From Pilibacter termitis (GTDB taxonomy: Bacteria; Bacillota; Bacilli; Lactobacillales; Streptococcaceae), in the NCBI RefSeq assembly GCF_900167335.1, contig NZ_FUXI01000027.1:1-34711 (forward strand): a stretch of 34,711 nt of DNA, in the 5' to 3' direction. Of this stretch, positions 4,241 to 34,711 are shown one piece after another. Position 1 is the stretch's first letter, and every line of letters begins with the position of its first letter. The notes below the pieces were generated by a model. It made no database searches. It worked only from the letters and a program-made list of their open reading frames with translations, and was not told the DNA's origin. A program made the position numbers and the translations under genes.

Positions 4241-4489
4241 CTAAAATTTTAAACTCGCATGAATTTTCGCTGCTTTTATTTTCCTTTTACAAATTGTTTT
4301 TATCACAATCAAAGCAATTGTTAAAATCAATAGAATGATACCAAAAGGAATCATCGTTGCATTGATAATTGTTTTATCGCTTGTTTGTTCAAATAAAAAC
4401 AATAGCCGCACGAACATTGATAAAATCACTGCAATGTAAACAATACCTGAAATTAAACTCAACATTCTTAGTTTGCCTATTTCGTCCAT
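4241..4489 (-). CDS. Small two-TM membrane protein
   Basis: An 82-residue protein with two transmembrane helices (about residues 10-31 and 43-64) and a basic C-terminus (KTICKRKIKAAKIH). I chose the ATG at 4489 because AAGGAG lies 7-8 bases upstream. Longer readings would translate the palindromic repeat. The stop codon falls inside a short fragment matching the end of repeat family 2 (4234-4246), so the C-terminus may have been reshaped by a repeat. The family is not recognised. Three tandem repeats form its upstream region. Confidence 0.6.
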   Translation of the reverse strand: MDEIGKLRMLSLISGIVYIAVILSMFVRLLFLFEQTSDKTIINATMIPFGIILLILTIALIVIKTICKRKIKAAKIHASLKF

Positions 4490-4502
4490 TTTTTTGCTCC
4501 TT

Positions 4503-4624
4503 TGTCTAGCTGTGAGGGGCAGGTGTTGGGCAACTGTTCGCAACAGCACTTGAAACTAAAGTTTCAAGCAAGTAAATGCTGTGGCTCACTGTTGCAAACA
4601 CCTGAACGCCCCTCTTAGCTTTTC
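4503..4624 (+). repeat. Palindromic repeat family 1, copy A
   Basis: A 122-base imperfect palindrome. In order it contains a constant TGTCTAGC end, GAGGGGC, stem word AGGTGT, stem word GCAAC, constant internal loop TGTTCGCA, stem word ACAGCA, and tip stem CTTGAAAC/GTTTCAAG. The complements GCTGT/TGCTGT, GTTGC and ACACCT follow, interrupted by the opposing constant loop GGCTCACT, and then GCCCCTC and AGCTTTTCT. It is the copy nearest the small membrane protein gene, whose ribosome binding site follows the CTAGACA end directly on the minus strand. No coding function seen. Confidence 0.9.
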
Positions 4625-4626
4625 TT

Positions 4627-4750
4627 TGTCTAGCTGTGAGGGGCTGAAGTTTGGTGGCTGTTCGCAGTACCGCTTGAAACTTACGTTTCAAGCAAGTAAA
4701 CGGCACGGCTCACTGCCACAAACTTCAAATCGCCCCTCGTAGCTTTTCTT
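4627..4750 (+). repeat. Palindromic repeat family 1, copy B
   Basis: Same framework as copy A but with different stem words: GAAGTTT/AAACTTC, GTGGC/GCCAC and GTACCG/CGGCAC (one mismatch). The constant TGTTCGCA and GGCTCACT loops are kept. It lies head-to-tail between copies A and C. Confidence 0.9.
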
Positions 4751-4872
4751 TGTCTAGCTGTGAGGGGCAGGTGTTGGGCAACTGTTCGCAACAGCACTTG
4801 AAACTAAAGTTTCAAGCAAGTAAATGCTGTGGCTCACTGTTGCAAACACCTGAACGCCCCTCTTAGCTTTTC
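4751..4872 (+). repeat. Palindromic repeat family 1, copy C
   Basis: By eye identical to copy A over its whole 122 bases, although the divergent copy B separates them. Its far end abuts the stop codon region of the YhfI-like gene (4880), so it also forms that gene's 3' flank. Confidence 0.9.
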
Positions 4873-4879
4873 TATTTCC

Positions 4880-5623
4880 CTAAATCTCAAATGTTTTCCG
4901 TTTTTTTGCTAGTTCGACGGTTACTTTTTCTCCTGCTGCCTGTTGAGCTTGTTTGTGTAATAAGTTCAAATCTTTTTCCTGTGGCAAATGTGTGAGGACT
5001 AATTTTTTCACTTGTGCCACTCGTGCAATTTCTCCTGATTCTTTGCTTGTGAAATGTGCATGATGTCGCTCTTGTCCCTCAAATAAATAAGTATCTGCTA
5101 AAAATAAATCTGCATTTTTTGCAAACCCCTTAAACTCCTCCATATAGCCAGAATCCCCTGTAAAGACAAACACTTTCCCCGTTTTTCTTACGGTAAAACG
5201 CATCGCATAACAAGGAACAGGATGAATAGTTTTCATAAACGTTACATCAAAAGGACCGAGGCGAAGGGTTTCGTCAGGGTTATATGCTACCCCTGTGGAT
5301 ACATTTGGCAAGGTCAAATCATTAAAACGGTTCTTATCCTCCGTATGACCATAAATCGACAAATTCATACCGTCCCAATCGTCCTTGTCCCAAAGCTGAC
5401 GGTAATATTGCAACACCCCTAAATCAGCGATATGGTCATGATGATAATGGCTCAATATCACCGCATCCAAGCATAACGGACTAACAAAATGCTCTAACTC
5501 CGTCACCGCACGACTTCCACAATCAAGCAATAAATTGTAACTCCCCTCTTGCAAAAGGTACGCACTCGTCCCCTCGTCATTATGCGGAAACCCTCCAAGA
5601 CAACCTAAAACTGTCACTTTCAT
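4880..5623 (-). CDS. MBL-fold hydrolase, YhfI-like
   Basis: A 247-residue metallo-beta-lactamase fold protein related to ribonuclease Z-type hydrolases and to Bacillus YhfI. Visible motifs are LLLDCGS (residues 31-37), SHYHHDH (residues 58-64, with the HxHxDH ligands His59, His61, Asp63, His64), TGDSGY and, near the C-terminus, LTHLPQ. The intervening HHAHFTSKESGEIA segment matches the conserved region of this subfamily. Cytoplasmic; substrate unknown (phosphodiesterase-type activity is the family expectation). It is separated by 66 bases from nrdG, transcribed in the same direction, and its 3' end runs into repeat copy C. Confidence 0.85.
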   Translation of the reverse strand: MKVTVLGCLGGFPHNDEGTSAYLLQEGSYNLLLDCGSRAVTELEHFVSPLCLDAVILSHYHHDHIADLGVLQYYRQLWDKDDWDGMNLSIYGHTEDKNRFNDLTLPNVSTGVAYNPDETLRLGPFDVTFMKTIHPVPCYAMRFTVRKTGKVFVFTGDSGYMEEFKGFAKNADLFLADTYLFEGQERHHAHFTSKESGEIARVAQVKKLVLTHLPQEKDLNLLHKQAQQAAGEKVTVELAKKRKTFEI

Positions 5624-14321: not shown

Positions 14322-14442
14322 GAAAAACGGTGAGGGGCGAGCTGGAGTTTGTCGTAGTGAGCCTTGCTATTTACTTGACTGAAGCAAGGCTTCAGGTGGC
14401 ATTGCGAACAGCGACCAAACTCCTGCCCCTCGGAACTAGACA
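14322..14442 (-). repeat. Palindromic repeat family 1, copy D
   Basis: Minus-orientation copy with stem words AGGAGTTT/AAACTCC, GTCGC/ACGAC and TGCCA/TAGCA and a distinct tip stem CTGAAGC/GCTTCAG. Constant loops TGTTCGCA and GGCTCACT are present. In tandem with copy E. Confidence 0.85.
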
Positions 14443-14444
14443 AA

Positions 14445-14566
14445 GAAAAGCGAAGAGGGGCGGTTTGAAGTCTGCAACAGCGAACACTGTCGTTCATTTA
14501 CTAGAAACGTAAGTTTCTAGCGACATTGTGAGCAGTTGCCAGACTTCAGCCCCTCGCAGCTAGACA
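14445..14566 (-). repeat. Palindromic repeat family 1, copy E (internal loops swapped)
   Basis: Minus-orientation copy with stem words GAAGTCT/AGACTTC, GCAAC/GTTGC and tip CTAGAAAC/GTTTCTAG. Unlike all other copies, the GTTCGC-type loop lies on the distal arm and the GCTCAC-type loop on the proximal arm. Its CTAGACA end is followed after two A by the AAGGAGG site of the DUF2130 gene. Confidence 0.85.
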
Positions 14567-14582
14567 AAAAGGAGGAAACACC

Positions 14583-16046
14583 ATGCACGAAATCAAATGT
14601 CCACATTGTCAAAAAGTCTTTCAAGTCGATGAAAGTGGGTATGCAGACATTGCCACTCAAATTCGCAATCATGAGTTTGATAAGGAGTTAAAAGAAAAAT
14701 TAGCGACCGAAAAAAAATTATTGGATAATCAAAAGGAAAAAGAATTGTCCGAGTTACAAAATGAGTTAGAAAAACTGAAAATATCTCAAAAAAACGAACT
14801 AGAACTTGCAAAAAATGACAAAGACAAAGAAATTGACTTGCTCAACACAAAACTTGAGAGTCTTACTGAAAAAAAAGAATTAGAAATTCAAAACGCTCTT
14901 ACTGAAAAAGAAAAACAACTCGCTGATTTGAAAAATGAAATGGAAAATCTTAAAACTTCCAAAGAAAACGAACTAGAATTTGCAAAAATTGACAAAGACA
15001 AAGAAATTGAACGGCTCAAAGCTGAACTGGAAAAATTAACCGAAAAACAACCGTTAGAAATCCAAAATGCTTTGAGCGAAAAGGAAAAAGAGGTTGAACA
15101 ACTCAATCATAAAATGGAAACATTGCGTTTAGACTTAGAAAATAAAATGACTTCTTCTCGTGCAGCACTTGAAAAAGAGCGAAATGACTTGGAAAATCAA
15201 CTCATTTTATCTGAAAAAGAGAGAGAACTTGAAAAACAATCTTTACAAAAGGAGTATGAAACTCAACTAAAAGTCAAAGAGGAAGAAATCGCATTTTACA
15301 AAGATTTTAAAGCAAAACAATCTACGAAAATGATTGGTGAGAGCTTGGAAAATTACACTGAGCAAGAATTTAACAAATTAAGAGCGACTGCTTTCAAATC
15401 TGCATATTTTGAAAAAGATAACGATGCGAAAACAGGGTCAAAAGGAGATTTCATCTTCCGTGATTACGAAGGAGAGCTAGAGTATATTTCGATTATGTTT
15501 GAAATGAAAAACGAACAAGATACAACGGCGACAAAACATAAAAACCGTGATTTTTTCAAAGAATTAGATAAAGATAGACGGGAAAAAAATTGTGAATATG
15601 CTGTACTTGTGAGTTTGCTTGAGAGTGAAAATGAATTTTATAACACTGGCATCGTCGAAGTGAGTGAGTATGAAAAAATGTATGTCGTTCGACCGCAATT
15701 TTTCATTCAAATGATTAGCCTTTTGAGAAATGCTGCACTAAATTCTCTTGCCTACAAACAAGAGTTGAGCGAAATCAAAAATCGTGAGATTGATATTACA
15801 AATTTTGAAAATGATCTCAACATTTTCCGAGATAACTTCATGATTACAGCAAAAAATTTCAATGGAAATTTAGAAAAACTTGACAAAAATTTAGAAGATA
15901 GCATTAAAAAATTAACAAATGCACGAGATGAGTTGCGAAAAGCAATGAAAAATCTTGGTACCGCTGAAAATAAACTTGAAGGGTTATCTGTAAAACGTCT
16001 TGTAAAAAATAACCCTACGATGAAAGCAAAATTTGAAGAATTATAA
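14583..16046 (+). CDS. DUF2130 coiled-coil protein
   Basis: A 487-residue cytoplasmic protein. The N-terminus has a CPHC knuckle (residues 6-9). A long charged coiled coil (about residues 28-250) contains near-repeats built on KEKEIDxLNxKLExL-type heptads. A C-terminal DUF2130 domain follows (from about MIGESLENYTEQEF to MYVVRPQFFI), and a final helical region completes the protein. DUF2130 contains an endonuclease-like fold by family knowledge, though activity is not established, and a role in DNA or phage-related processes is only a possibility. The AAGGAGG site lies 8 bases before ATG. The long repeat-filled leader suggests post-transcriptional control. Confidence 0.85.
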   Translation: MHEIKCPHCQKVFQVDESGYADIATQIRNHEFDKELKEKLATEKKLLDNQKEKELSELQNELEKLKISQKNELELAKNDKDKEIDLLNTKLESLTEKKELEIQNALTEKEKQLADLKNEMENLKTSKENELEFAKIDKDKEIERLKAELEKLTEKQPLEIQNALSEKEKEVEQLNHKMETLRLDLENKMTSSRAALEKERNDLENQLILSEKERELEKQSLQKEYETQLKVKEEEIAFYKDFKAKQSTKMIGESLENYTEQEFNKLRATAFKSAYFEKDNDAKTGSKGDFIFRDYEGELEYISIMFEMKNEQDTTATKHKNRDFFKELDKDRREKNCEYAVLVSLLESENEFYNTGIVEVSEYEKMYVVRPQFFIQMISLLRNAALNSLAYKQELSEIKNREIDITNFENDLNIFRDNFMITAKNFNGNLEKLDKNLEDSIKKLTNARDELRKAMKNLGTAENKLEGLSVKRLVKNNPTMKAKFEEL

Positions 16047-16881: not shown

Positions 16882-17496
16882 CTATTCAATTTTCAATACT
16901 TCGCTCAAACTTTTCACCGTGAAATCAGCCTCTGGCACTTGTAAAAATCCATCTGGCGAAAACAAAACCGCCTTTACATTTGCATTTTTTGCAGCCAAAA
17001 TATCAAGCTCTCGATCTCCTATCATCAACGCTTTCTCACGCTCCACACCAAATCTATCAACCAAATAATCGACACTTTCAGGGTTAGGTTTACGTGCAAA
17101 ATGGTCATTGCTCGTAATGACATAGCTAAAATATTCTATCAAATGTGCATTTTCCAGAAAATCAACCACTTGCAAATCACGATGTGAAATAATATAATTT
17201 TTTCCACCTTTTTCCACCACGCTCTTCAATACCTCTGCCGTATCTTGAAAAGAGAGCGGATTTTCCTGCATAGGTCGCTCAATTTCGTGGTATTTTTGTA
17301 AAAAATCCTCTGCCAAATTCCCAACAAAAAATTTTGCCGCCTCACCCGTTGAAGTCTTTTTCAGCTGTTCATAAATCGCCTCATCACTTGCCGACAATTG
17401 AAAAATTGCCAATGTTTGCTGGAAAGCCCTCACACTTGTTGAAAGCGTATCAAACAATGTCCCACCTATATCCCAAATATAATATTTATAATTCAT
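16882..17496 (-). CDS. HAD-superfamily hydrolase, DxGGT variant
   Basis: A 204-residue protein with the HAD subfamily IA layout: motif I WDIGGTLFDT (Asp9), a helical cap domain, motif II TSND, motif III KPNPESVDYL and motif IV GDRELDILAAKNA. The second acidic residue of motif I (normally DxD) is Gly11, as in several lactobacillus/enterococcus homologues annotated as phosphoglycolate phosphatase-like. Substrate is unknown. The ATG at 17496 was chosen because AAGGAG lies 7 bases upstream. A longer reading would translate repeat copy F. Confidence 0.8.
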   Translation of the reverse strand: MNYKYYIWDIGGTLFDTLSTSVRAFQQTLAIFQLSASDEAIYEQLKKTSTGEAAKFFVGNLAEDFLQKYHEIERPMQENPLSFQDTAEVLKSVVEKGGKNYIISHRDLQVVDFLENAHLIEYFSYVITSNDHFARKPNPESVDYLVDRFGVEREKALMIGDRELDILAAKNANVKAVLFSPDGFLQVPEADFTVKSLSEVLKIE

Positions 17497-17514: not shown

Positions 17515-17637
17515 TGGTCTAGCTACGAGGGGCAGGAGTCTGGTCGCTGTTCGCAATGCCACCTGAAGCCGTGCTTCAGGCAAGTAAATGGCATGGCTCA
17601 CTGCGACAAACTCCTGAACGCCCCTCTACGCTTTTCT
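17515..17637 (+). repeat. Palindromic repeat family 1, copy F
   Basis: Stem words GTCGC/GCGAC and ATGCCA/TGGCAT, tip CCTGAAGC/GCTTCAGG, outer words AGGAGTCT/AAACTCCT. One end abuts the ribosome binding site of the HAD gene, and the other encodes the last residues and stop codon of the nucleotidyltransferase. Confidence 0.9.
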
Positions 17638-19528: not shown

Positions 19529-19691
19529 TATAGGGCACCTCTAAAAACTCACACTTATCCAAAATTGCTAGTTTTCCGATTTTCTTCGTCAGTCTCCTCA
19601 ACCTATGAACCACATAGTTTTCGTCGATTTCCTCGAAAATCAAAAAACTATCTAATTTTGGCTTAACCGGAGTTTTTAGAGGTGCCCTATA
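19529..19691. repeat. Palindromic repeat family 2, copy 1
   Basis: A 155-base core (19533-19687) with terminal inverted repeats GGGCACCTCTAAAAACTC. Its inner arms are also complementary, and a small tip CTATG/CATAG sits near the centre. Direct TATA repeats flank it on both sides. Noncoding. It lies between the convergent prenyltransferase and ABC permease genes. Confidence 0.85.
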
Positions 19692-23176: not shown

Positions 23177-23215
23177 GTCCTTCTCCTCTCTGCCTAGCAC
23201 TTGGTGTTAATTAGA

Positions 23216-23378
23216 ATATGGGCACCTCTAAAAACTCGCACTTATCCTAAATTGCTAGTTTTCCAATTTTCTTCGTCAATCTCCTCAACCTATGAACCAC
23301 ATAGCTTTCGTCGATTTCCTCGAAAATCGAAAAACTAGCTAATTTAGTCTTAAGCGGAGTTTTTAGAGGTACCCATAT
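23216..23378. repeat. Palindromic repeat family 2, copy 2
   Basis: A 155-base core (23220-23374) almost identical to copy 1, with compensated changes in the inner arms (TAAATT/AATTTA in place of AAAATT/AATTTT). Direct ATAT repeats flank it. It lies in the leader of the ABC operon. Confidence 0.85.
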
Positions 23379-23486
23379 TTAAAACTCACCATTCTGCATT
23401 TTTATGTAAAAACACTACTTTTTTCAATATTTTTTTACAGCAGTTTCTTTTCTTTCTAAAAAATTTTCTAGCGTAAGTCGCTCTAC

Positions 23487-32380: not shown

Positions 32381-34369
32381 TTATTTTACAATCACTTTCC
32401 CAACCACATCATTTGCTTTTGCTGTTTGATTGGCTTTTGAAAGTTCTACGTTTGAAATAGCGTCCATATTGGTGAAGGCGATGATAATATCTGTTTTCTT
32501 GCCTGCTTCTTTTACTTTTGACAAGTCCATTTCTGCTACTTTATCACCTTTTTTCACTACTTGACCTTCTTCAACTGCCAATGTGAATGGCTCACCTTGA
32601 AGTTGTACAGTATCAATTCCCATGTGAAGCAATACTTCTGCTCCACTTTCCGTTTGAATACCCATTGCGTGTTTAGTTGGGAAAATACTTGTGATTTTTC
32701 CTGCAACTGGTGTATAAACGGCATTACTCGTTGGGCGAACAGCATAGCCGTCTCCCATCATTTTTTCAGAGAATACATCATCTTCTACGTCGCTAATAGA
32801 GATAACTTCTCCATCAGCTACCGCGAAAAAATCGTCTTTTCCACCTTTTGTTTCACTTGCTTTTTGCTCAACAACAGGTGTTGATGTTTGAACACTCTCT
32901 AAACCAGCACCACCAGATTGCTGAATTTTTTTCATTTCATCTGCTACGAATTGTACTTCTGTTCCAACGATTACTTGCACATTTTTATCATCAAGCACAC
33001 GCATACCCGGTACACCTGTTGATTTAATAGCTGTTTCATTGACATTTTTACTATCTTTCACGATTAAACGAAGACGTGTTGTACAGTTGTCAATAGATTC
33101 TACGTTTTCAATTCCACCAAGCCCTTTGTAAATGCGAGAGGCAAGAACTTGGAATTTGTTGTCTGCTGTTGTATTGTTGTCAATATCAGGCATTTCTTCG
33201 CCGTCACCTTCTTCACGACCCGGTGTCATAAGGTTAAATGTGCGAATCATAAATGTAAACACTACATAATAAACTACTGCCATAACCAAACCTAAAACAA
33301 GTAACATAAATGGTTTGTTTGCAAGCGGAAGATTGAAACTCAAGATGTAGTCAATCAAACCTGCTGAGAAGTTAAATCCTGCTGTCCAATGGAATGTTGC
33401 CGCAATAAACATTGAAATACCTGTCAATATCGCATGCACAACGTATAATGGCCATGCAACAAACATAAATGAAAACTCAAGCGGTTCTGTTACCCCTGTT
33501 GTGAATGCTGCAACTGCTGCTGCAAGCATAAGAGAGGCTGTTGCTTTTTTCTTTTCAGGGCGAGCATTTTGGTAAATTGCTAATGCTCCAGCTGGCAAAC
33601 CAAACATCATCACAGGGAAGAATCCTGCTTGATACATACCAGTTACACCTTTTACACCATCTCCGCTCCAGAATTTTGCAATGTCATCAATTCCTGCAAT
33701 GTTGAACCAGAATACATTGTTCAATGCGTGGTGCATACCTGTTGGGATTAACAAACGATTGAAAAAACCGTACAATCCAGCACCTAGTGGACCCATTTTT
33801 GAAATGAACTCACCAAATGTTACCAAACCTCCATAAACAGCTGGCCAAACGAATAAAAGAATTGCTGATACCGCCAACATCACAAATGAAGTCACGATTG
33901 GTACTAAACGGCGTCCGCTAAAGAATGAAAACGCCATAGGAAGTTTCACACCACTAAATTTGTTGTACATAGCAGCACCAATAAGTCCTGCTAAAATCCC
34001 AATAAATACGTTTTTGTTGTTAATTGCACCAAATGCTGTTGCCACTTTTTCGACTTCAATTCCTTGGAACATTGCAACAGCTGCTGAATTTAAAAGTGTC
34101 ATTGGTACAAGGAAAGAAACTAAACCTGTAAGAGCTGCTGCTCCGTCCTTGTCTTTTGACATACCATAGGCAAGACCTACGGCAAACAAAATTCCTAAAT
34201 TATCAAGAATTGTTCCTCCAGCTTTAATTAGGAATGCTGCAAAAACATTGCCTCCACCCCAACCACTTGGGTCAATTGCGTAACCAATTCCCATAAACAA
34301 TGCTGCAACTGGTAAAGTTGCTACTGGTAGCATTAAGCTACGTCCCATATTTTGTAGATATGCTTTCAA
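32381..34369 (-). CDS. PTS glucose/N-acetylglucosamine-type permease, EIICBA
   Basis: A 662-residue phosphotransferase permease with fused domains. EIIC covers residues 1 to about 385 (MGRSLMLPVATLPVAALFMG near the start, and IPTGMHHALNNVFWF). EIIB has phosphorylated Cys429 in IDNCTTRLRL. EIIA covers about 515-662, with His567 and active-site His582 in LLHMGIDTV. It imports and phosphorylates a glucose-type sugar. The sequence style favours N-acetylglucosamine, but this is not certain. The start codon is TTG at 34369 with AAAGGA 9 bases upstream. The region before the gene is filled by repeats, so its promoter is not evident. Confidence 0.93.
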   Translation of the reverse strand: MKAYLQNMGRSLMLPVATLPVAALFMGIGYAIDPSGWGGGNVFAAFLIKAGGTILDNLGILFAVGLAYGMSKDKDGAAALTGLVSFLVPMTLLNSAAVAMFQGIEVEKVATAFGAINNKNVFIGILAGLIGAAMYNKFSGVKLPMAFSFFSGRRLVPIVTSFVMLAVSAILLFVWPAVYGGLVTFGEFISKMGPLGAGLYGFFNRLLIPTGMHHALNNVFWFNIAGIDDIAKFWSGDGVKGVTGMYQAGFFPVMMFGLPAGALAIYQNARPEKKKATASLMLAAAVAAFTTGVTEPLEFSFMFVAWPLYVVHAILTGISMFIAATFHWTAGFNFSAGLIDYILSFNLPLANKPFMLLVLGLVMAVVYYVVFTFMIRTFNLMTPGREEGDGEEMPDIDNNTTADNKFQVLASRIYKGLGGIENVESIDNCTTRLRLIVKDSKNVNETAIKSTGVPGMRVLDDKNVQVIVGTEVQFVADEMKKIQQSGGAGLESVQTSTPVVEQKASETKGGKDDFFAVADGEVISISDVEDDVFSEKMMGDGYAVRPTSNAVYTPVAGKITSIFPTKHAMGIQTESGAEVLLHMGIDTVQLQGEPFTLAVEEGQVVKKGDKVAEMDLSKVKEAGKKTDIIIAFTNMDAISNVELSKANQTAKANDVVGKVIVK

Positions 34370-34389: not shown

Positions 34390-34460
34390 GGGCACCTATA
34401 AAAACTCACACTTATCCCAAATTGCTAGTTTTCCGTTTTTCTTCGTCAATCTCCTCAACC
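34390..34460. repeat. Palindromic repeat family 2, half copy
   Basis: A 71-base left arm, matching 19533-19603 base for base apart from a few changes and ending just at the base of the tip hairpin. The right arm is absent, and family 1 copy H begins one base later. Confidence 0.85.
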
Positions 34461-34461
34461 T

Positions 34462-34583
34462 TGTCTAGCTACGGGGGCAGGAGTTTGGTCGCTGTTCGCA
34501 ATGCTACTTGAAACTTCGTTTCAAGCAAGTAAATAGCATGGCTCACTACGACAAACTCCTGAACGCCCCTCTTAGCTTTTCTA
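34462..34583 (+). repeat. Palindromic repeat family 1, copy H
   Basis: Stem words AGGAGTTT/AAACTCCT, GTCGC/ACGAC and ATGCTA/TAGCAT, with tip CTTGAAAC/GTTTCAAG. Part of the upstream region of the PTS gene. Confidence 0.9.
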
Positions 34584-34711
34584 TGTCTAGCTACGAAGTG
34601 CAGGAGTTTGGCAACTGTTCGCAGTGTCGCTCGAAACTAAAGTTTCGATGCTAGTCTTTCAAGAATCTTTGATTCTTAGAAAGACTGTATGCGAAACGAA
34701 GTGTAGCGGTA
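34584..34711 (+). repeat. Palindromic repeat family 1, copy I, interrupted and cut by the window end
   Basis: Begins like other copies (CTAGCTACGA, AGGAGTTT, GGCAAC, TGTTCGCA). After the CGAAACT/AGTTTCG tip it diverges into a second hairpin (34653-34686: AGTCTTTC-AGAATC with GATTCTT-GAAAGACT). The rest is outside the window. Confidence 0.75.

Follow-up and report, generated by a model that had tools for sequence, protein, structure and literature searches.

The window, by which we mean the whole stretch of DNA analysed, is one complete contig of 34,711 bases (G000:C49) from the draft genome of Pilibacter termitis, which amounts to 2.79 Mb in 59 contigs and is 98.67% complete. For its ClpE, the best among the matches listed came from Streptococcus, Enterococcus, and Lactococcus, at 70-73%. 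Nine copies or fragments of a long hairpin repeat, the number counted in an earlier sequence-only reading of this DNA, were located in the window (Table 1), and the stem words quoted in that reading are present in the copies. The repeat unit is rod-shaped and about 122 nt long; as written on the strand of that reading it runs from TGTCTAGC at its start to GCTTTTCT at its end. Within the tandem trio at 4503-4873 the start-to-start spacing is 124 nt, and the first and third copies are identical in sequence while the middle copy carries other stem words. Positions 14726-15073 form a direct tandem duplication of 174 nt, 75% identical, which lies inside the gene at 14583-16046.

Table 1. Repeat copies and neighbouring features in the 34,711-nt window (coordinates on the forward strand).
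Feature	Position	Strand	Basis
Repeat copy 1 of tandem three	4503..4625	- (RNA-sense strand given)	sequence, alignment
Repeat copy 2, differing stem words	4627..4749	-	fold -60.3 kcal/mol, z -8.21
Repeat copy 3, sequence as copy 1	4751..4873	-	
Sense gene upstream of the 4503-4873 array; stop codon about 7 nt before the array	4880..5623	-	ORF
RBS-like AAGGAG and ATG (4489) directly after the 4503-4873 array, for the next - strand gene	4487..4502	-	by eye
Repeat copy, first of tandem pair	14322..14442	+	
Second copy of the tandem pair, G.A module swapped; followed directly by the RBS and start codon (ATG, 14583) of a gene	14444..14566	+	fold -58.7 kcal/mol
Single repeat copy between promoter-like -10 and RBS of the gene starting at 17496	17516..17637	-	
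D2 carrier without repeat unit: empty site	19529..19691	.	sequence
D2 carrier without repeat unit: second empty site	23215..23379	.	sequence
Short repeat copy without inner hairpin; overlaps gene 32381-34369 by its first base, which completes the stop codon	32304..32381	-	limits by eye; partial match
Repeat copy within D2-type carrier repeat	34462..34582	-	
Long repeat variant, ended by the contig end	34584..34711	-	compare long copies elsewhere in the genome

The repeat occurs throughout the genome. A degenerate core pattern gave 463 matches in the 2.79 Mb compared to 2 for the reversed control, and a covariance model (R1) gave at least 150, since all 150 candidates scored among 1,819 first-look candidates matched. 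Examination of 97 genome stretches yielded 121 arrays with 244 full-length copies, 237 of them distinct. No array was of mixed orientation (0 of 121, with no strong opposite-strand copy). Fifteen long copies of 179-183 nt are extended by about 60 bases, which form an additional inner hairpin at the tip. Few copies are identical, which suggests that current activity of the family in P. termitis is slow. Contigs break inside the repeat both at 34584-34711 of the window and at the first bases of another contig (C58, locus L040). Copies were thus probably lost in the short-read assembly, and the count of 463 may be too low.

Stem pairing is strongly maintained among the copies. In an alignment of 53 copies, 96.9% of the stem cells were paired, and 27 of the 40 pairs had changes on both sides; when the partner was slid by 1-3 columns, only 33.3-41.3% of the cells were paired. 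Double-changed stem cells numbered 335, a value reached in none of 500 shuffles (mean 105.4). We then compared the covariation with 100 structure-free alignments simulated along the repeat's own tree, which for recombining copies is a rough null. At E<0.05 over 7,021 pairs, 6 of the 43 stem pairs were significant and none of the other pairs was; rescaling the E-values to the 43 stem pairs alone gave 14 of 43. The suggestion of the sequence-only reading that the folded structure is selected is borne out, as the covariation passes this phylogeny-aware null and the fold persists across genera at a median identity of 45% (see below).

The same reading had regarded the stem words as combinatorial, and this holds in part. 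Among the 237 copies, the word information common to both arms was 0.71-0.90 in helices H3-H6 but fell to 0.45 in the G.A helix and to 0.32 in the outer helix H2. The left arms of different helices had 0.18-0.61 in common, with the highest value for the adjacent inner helices H5 and H6 (0.61) and values of 0.18-0.25 for H2 with the others. As H5 and H6 are linked while distant helices are nearly unlinked, the shuffling of words is partly an exchange of concentric shells. Ordinary recombination that exchanges whole inner shells keeps the pairing for free and can yield this part of the pattern; the remainder is paired change.

Both strands of the repeat folded far more stably than shuffled sequence. 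For three window copies the strand opposite to that of the first reading gave -60.3, -58.7, and -64.0 kcal/mol versus -56.1, -53.7, and -56.6 kcal/mol on the reader's strand, with z-scores of -8.21, -7.49, and -6.65 versus -7.17, -6.69, and -5.71. The consensus fold of 113 copies differed likewise (-46.1 on the opposite strand, -33.3 on the reader's strand). The predicted fold on the opposite strand comprises an outer helix, a 4-nt bulge of the GUUC type, two helices, a short tandem-G.A helix, another helix, an 8-nt bulge of the UUUACUUG type, and the tip hairpin. Two elements previously described as loops, TGTTCGCA and GGCTCACT, are indeed unpaired on the reader's strand, but on the other strand GUGAGC pairs with GCGAAC through tandem G.A pairs. 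In this helix G38 and G86 were kept in 236 of 237 copies and A39 and A87 in all 237. A35, too, was kept in all 237 distinct full-length copies. The forms of the G.A module were GTGAGC/GCGAAC in 142 copies, the swapped GCGAAC/GTGAGC in 17, GCGAAC/GAGAGC in 7, and GTGAAC/GTGAAC in 17, so that GCGAAC is on the left arm in at least 24 of the 237 copies (17 opposite GTGAGC and 7 opposite GAGAGC). The module is nearly symmetric and its rotation keeps the shape, as selection on shape would allow. Among stem mismatches, G.U exceeded A.C in number (167 versus 71), in columns (22 versus 8), and in copies (100 versus 26); helix H5 alone ran against this trend, with 19 A.C and 14 G.U. This asymmetry points to one functional strand and fits RNA and single-stranded DNA alike. 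Taken together, selection acts on the fold of one strand, and this functional strand is complementary to the one first read and runs in the direction of the flanking genes.

Relatives of the repeat were reached by covariance models alone, as plain DNA similarity gave no match in 39 other genomes. Model R1 detected the fold in 6 of 195 other family genomes. Model R2, which was built from 14 matches in relatives, detected it in 10 of 294 other genomes, compared to none of 394 other genomes drawn from the order; with 9-18 candidates scored per genome, misses are likely in each of these searches. With 150 candidates scored, ten relatives had 54, 19, 13, 11, 9, 6, 3, 1, 1, and 1 copies, and an incomplete genome of the same genus had none. 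Sixty-six copies from seven relatives had a median identity of 45%, with 89.7% of cells paired, double changes in 38 of 40 pairs, and 909 double-changed cells versus 266 after shuffling, counts that lean towards structure because this alignment (A3) was fitted to the model. A35 was invariant in all 66, and the bulge before the tip read TTyATTnA in most. The exact tandem G.A was present in 14 of the 66 and was rejected as a cross-genus signature; A35 and the 8-nt bulge serve instead. Nine of 55 arrays in relatives were tandem and none was of mixed orientation. At orthologous loci of two species (L070 in G042, L071 in G019), one copy has an inner hairpin of about 60 nt more than the other, through either a loss between short direct repeats or the gain of a nested hairpin.

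These data bear on the idea that the repeat is an ordinary MITE whose palindrome is kept by arm templating (hairpin-templated correction or gene conversion) and exchange of central segments, with the fold itself unselected. The concentric linkage of the helices (0.61 for H5-H6 versus 0.18-0.25 for H2 with others) would be expected from such a process. Near-identical, recent-looking copies also occur in one relative (G047, L278-L285), where by eye the same three letters (AAT or GTT) stand on both sides in 7 of 9 copies, a possible target duplication. However, templated correction should erase mismatches, yet in nearly all 237 copies they persist at the A.A, G.A, and A.G positions, and the bulges are still unpaired. 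Neither the excess of G.U over A.C nor a fold shared between genera at 45% identity is expected from it, and we regard this explanation as distinctly improbable.

To describe placement we used simple ORF calls, and transcript edges were judged from ORFs, RBSs, and promoter-like motifs. On this basis, 22 of the 121 arrays lie in carriers of a second repeat type (D2, described below), 49 are flush with a stop codon, 32 end at an RBS without a flush stop, 17 are placed otherwise, and 1 is next to gaps. The 49 stop-flush arrays start -15 to 14 nt from the stop codon of the sense gene, and 19 of them also end at an RBS. At distances of -2 and -1 the first bases of the repeat itself complete the stop codon, as at position 32381 of the window. 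Outside D2, starts in this range occurred at 49 of 80 sense stops and 1 of 13 antisense stops (p 0.0004). Nine promoter-like -10 matches were found within 15 nt before the array in eight of the 32 RBS arrays, and the next 15-nt bins held 3, 1, and 3 (raw counts). The arrays lie in seemingly transcribed but untranslated gaps, beside stop codons, RBSs, and some promoters.

Between co-directional genes the pooled arrays were sense in 65 cases and antisense in 5. Outside D2, 62 arrays ran in sense and one (L051) in antisense, compared to 3 and 4 of those carried by D2 (p 0.0002), indicating that the sense bias belongs to directly placed copies. The bias within operons could be mere selection against polar antisense insertions, which is a counterpoint to a role as RNA. 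The antisense strand of the repeat would resemble an intrinsic terminator, a hairpin followed by GCTTTTCTTTG; a terminator scan covering stems of up to 20 counted pairs and loops of 3-8 reported no such site. Selection against polar insertions accounts less well for the convergent gaps: of the 11 non-D2 arrays there, 10 start at most 13 nt from the sense stop codon. Arrays of the relatives in co-directional gaps were sense in 31 and antisense in 10 cases, with 6 of the 10 in a single genome (G018, 6 of its 19 co-directional arrays), and were stop-flush at 27 of 37 sense and 2 of 16 antisense stop codons. By eye, copies in two genera (L159 in G018, L165 in G075) seem to share one intergenic position, between presumed purS and purQ, where they run antisense to the two genes, and a copy in a third genus (L168 in G062) lies in an rRNA-operon spacer close before the apparent 5' end of the 23S rRNA.

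The 32 arrays ending at an RBS without a flush stop, the 19 more with one, and the deep conservation of the fold would also suit a riboswitch-like regulatory RNA of the host that governs a regulon through tandem leader copies. About 460 copies, many of them directly after stop codons, and numbers ranging from 1 to hundreds among relatives argue against this, and we consider it very improbable.

D2 is a repeat family with long inverted ends (GGGCACCTCTAAAAACTC) that holds the rod at one fixed central site in 22 of the 121 arrays. It is present at 19529-19691, 23215-23379, and 34390-34461 of the window and at other loci. By eye it is flanked by TA; IS630-type MITEs are flanked by TA as well. The D2 sequence CAACCT/ATGAACC is unbroken near 19600 and 23300. 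It is split precisely by the unit at locus L048, while the junction at L032 is off by one base. Comparison of L048 with the empty site shows insertion without target duplication. In G018, five loci (L259, L260, L262, L263, and L264) have by eye D2-like outer ends (CTAAAAACC...GGTTTTTAGAGGT) around the rod core, as if the outer shell had been exchanged between element types.

Precise insertion without target duplication at L048 would fit a mobile element of single-stranded DNA, of which a recombinase or transposase reads one folded strand and whose sense placement results only from purging of antisense copies. The ends of IS200/IS605 elements and integron attC sites are read in this way as one folded DNA strand. 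The single functional strand, the conserved unpaired bases next to free stem sequence, and the joining of units in tandem agree with such an element, and Y-GA-R contexts form stable sheared pairs in DNA too. Against it stand the sense placement in convergent gaps, for which polarity selection accounts less well, and the result for the mobiliser: a RAYT/TnpA-Y1 transposase, considered in the sequence-only reading, was not recovered, with no match to PF01797 in the 98.67% complete draft genome and control matches in 5 of 14 genomes. We hold this alternative to be unlikely.

A reverse transcriptase was likewise not detected in the P. termitis genome (PF00078, no match; control matched in 3 of 14 genomes). 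PF13358 (DDE_3, IS630-type) gave three short matches, two of them over the cut-off, in open frames of 74, 58, and 69 aa (G000:C26:31509-31688, C17:16242-16370, and C50:33398-33499), which are probably remnants. For target duplications at 57 arrays, 5 of 36 tests of offset and length gave p<0.02 (one with 0 of 300 shuffles) in flanks that are A-rich and include repeated D2 flanks. The repeat ends are imperfectly complementary through the outer helix.

No known RNA family of Rfam 15 was matched by the repeat. At gathering score the window contained one tRNA and no other match, and under relaxed settings positions 4440-4900 yielded six weak matches, the strongest scoring 19.1 bits compared to a gathering score of 45. 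Plasmid and phage sequences held no match to the repeat, and exact patterns had none in genome_contigs or viral_contigs; records near the P. termitis genome may be left out of all four collections. A search of the open-licence literature found no description of the repeat, which may be in print elsewhere.

Based on these results we favour, with a probability of roughly 0.6, a BOX/bcr1-like family of small, non-autonomous, high-copy repeats that is selected for its fold on one strand and probably acts as RNA. The repeat would act as part of mRNA molecules, with the rod and its constant unpaired segments as possible contacts for an RNA-binding or RNA-processing factor of the host, for example one that cuts in the manner of RNase III or protects the ends of transcripts. 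Insertion into transcripts could thereby be tolerated as harmless or even be useful. Copies would be spread by an enzyme acting in trans, and arrays may grow by local duplication and exchange of concentric shells. A bolder version, which we put forward as doubtful, is a mobile RNA module. Several genera of one family would share a rod in which selection acts on the fold itself, namely on A35, the UUYAUUNA bulge, and the tip. A process coupled to transcription would set this rod in sense at transcript boundaries, and its outer ends would change between genera while the RNA core is kept. If true, bacteria would have an equivalent of a SINE, an element defined by its RNA and not by its DNA ends.

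Several known families resemble the P. termitis repeat in part. REP and BIME sequences are high-copy palindromes outside genes that occur in arrays; REPs are 20-40 bp long, BIME units alternate in orientation, and RAYT transposases are associated with them. The P. termitis repeat is similarly palindromic, extragenic, and arrayed in high copy, but its units are about 122 nt long, no array of mixed orientation occurred among 121 own and 55 relatives' arrays, and the Y1 transposase was not found. EFAR of Enterococcus faecalis, also in the Lactobacillales, is a palindromic, structured, intergenic repeat of about 163-170 bp and a mosaic of sequence types. Efa-1, likewise of E. faecalis, is described as a pair of adjacent stem-loops (PMC2267715). 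Judged by this description, the repeat studied here differs from Efa-1 in being one rod with an 8-nt bulge.

The bcr1-bcr18 repeats of the Bacillus cereus group are scattered over mRNAs, in their 5' and 3' UTRs and in gaps within operons; conserved secondary structures are reported for bcr10 and bcr18, the presence of bcr3 correlated with mRNA half-life, and all 18 families together number 165 and 155 copies (PMC3446304). The placement is similar, but in P. termitis a single family reaches about 460 copies, in another bacterial group, and tandem rods and the G.A module are not mentioned for bcr in passages of that source. BOX of Streptococcus pneumoniae and S. suis is described as small, modular, and high-copy, with a predicted RNA fold and a variable number of internal modules; it is built as boxA-boxB(n)-boxC, has inverted repeats at its termini and target duplications, is over-represented between convergent genes, often supplies the stop codon of the preceding gene (36 cases), and is thought to be parasitic (PMC3049150). 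Going by this description, both are small, modular, high-copy repeats of streptococcal relatives with an RNA-like predicted fold and a varying number of internal modules that can complete an upstream stop codon; the P. termitis repeat is set apart by whole 122-nt rods in tandem and by arrays that are mostly sense and between co-directional genes. Model R2 had no match in genomes of genus g5, which is probably Streptococcus, with 9 candidates scored per genome. The usual view of small interspersed repeats in bacteria is that of DNA parasites whose ends define them, whereas here several hundred copies, and those in other genera, have one fold and little common sequence and lie on one strand at seeming transcript edges. 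RNA-level selection on such repeats thereby becomes directly testable, with the copies serving as an extensive natural collection of mutants for a single RNA architecture.
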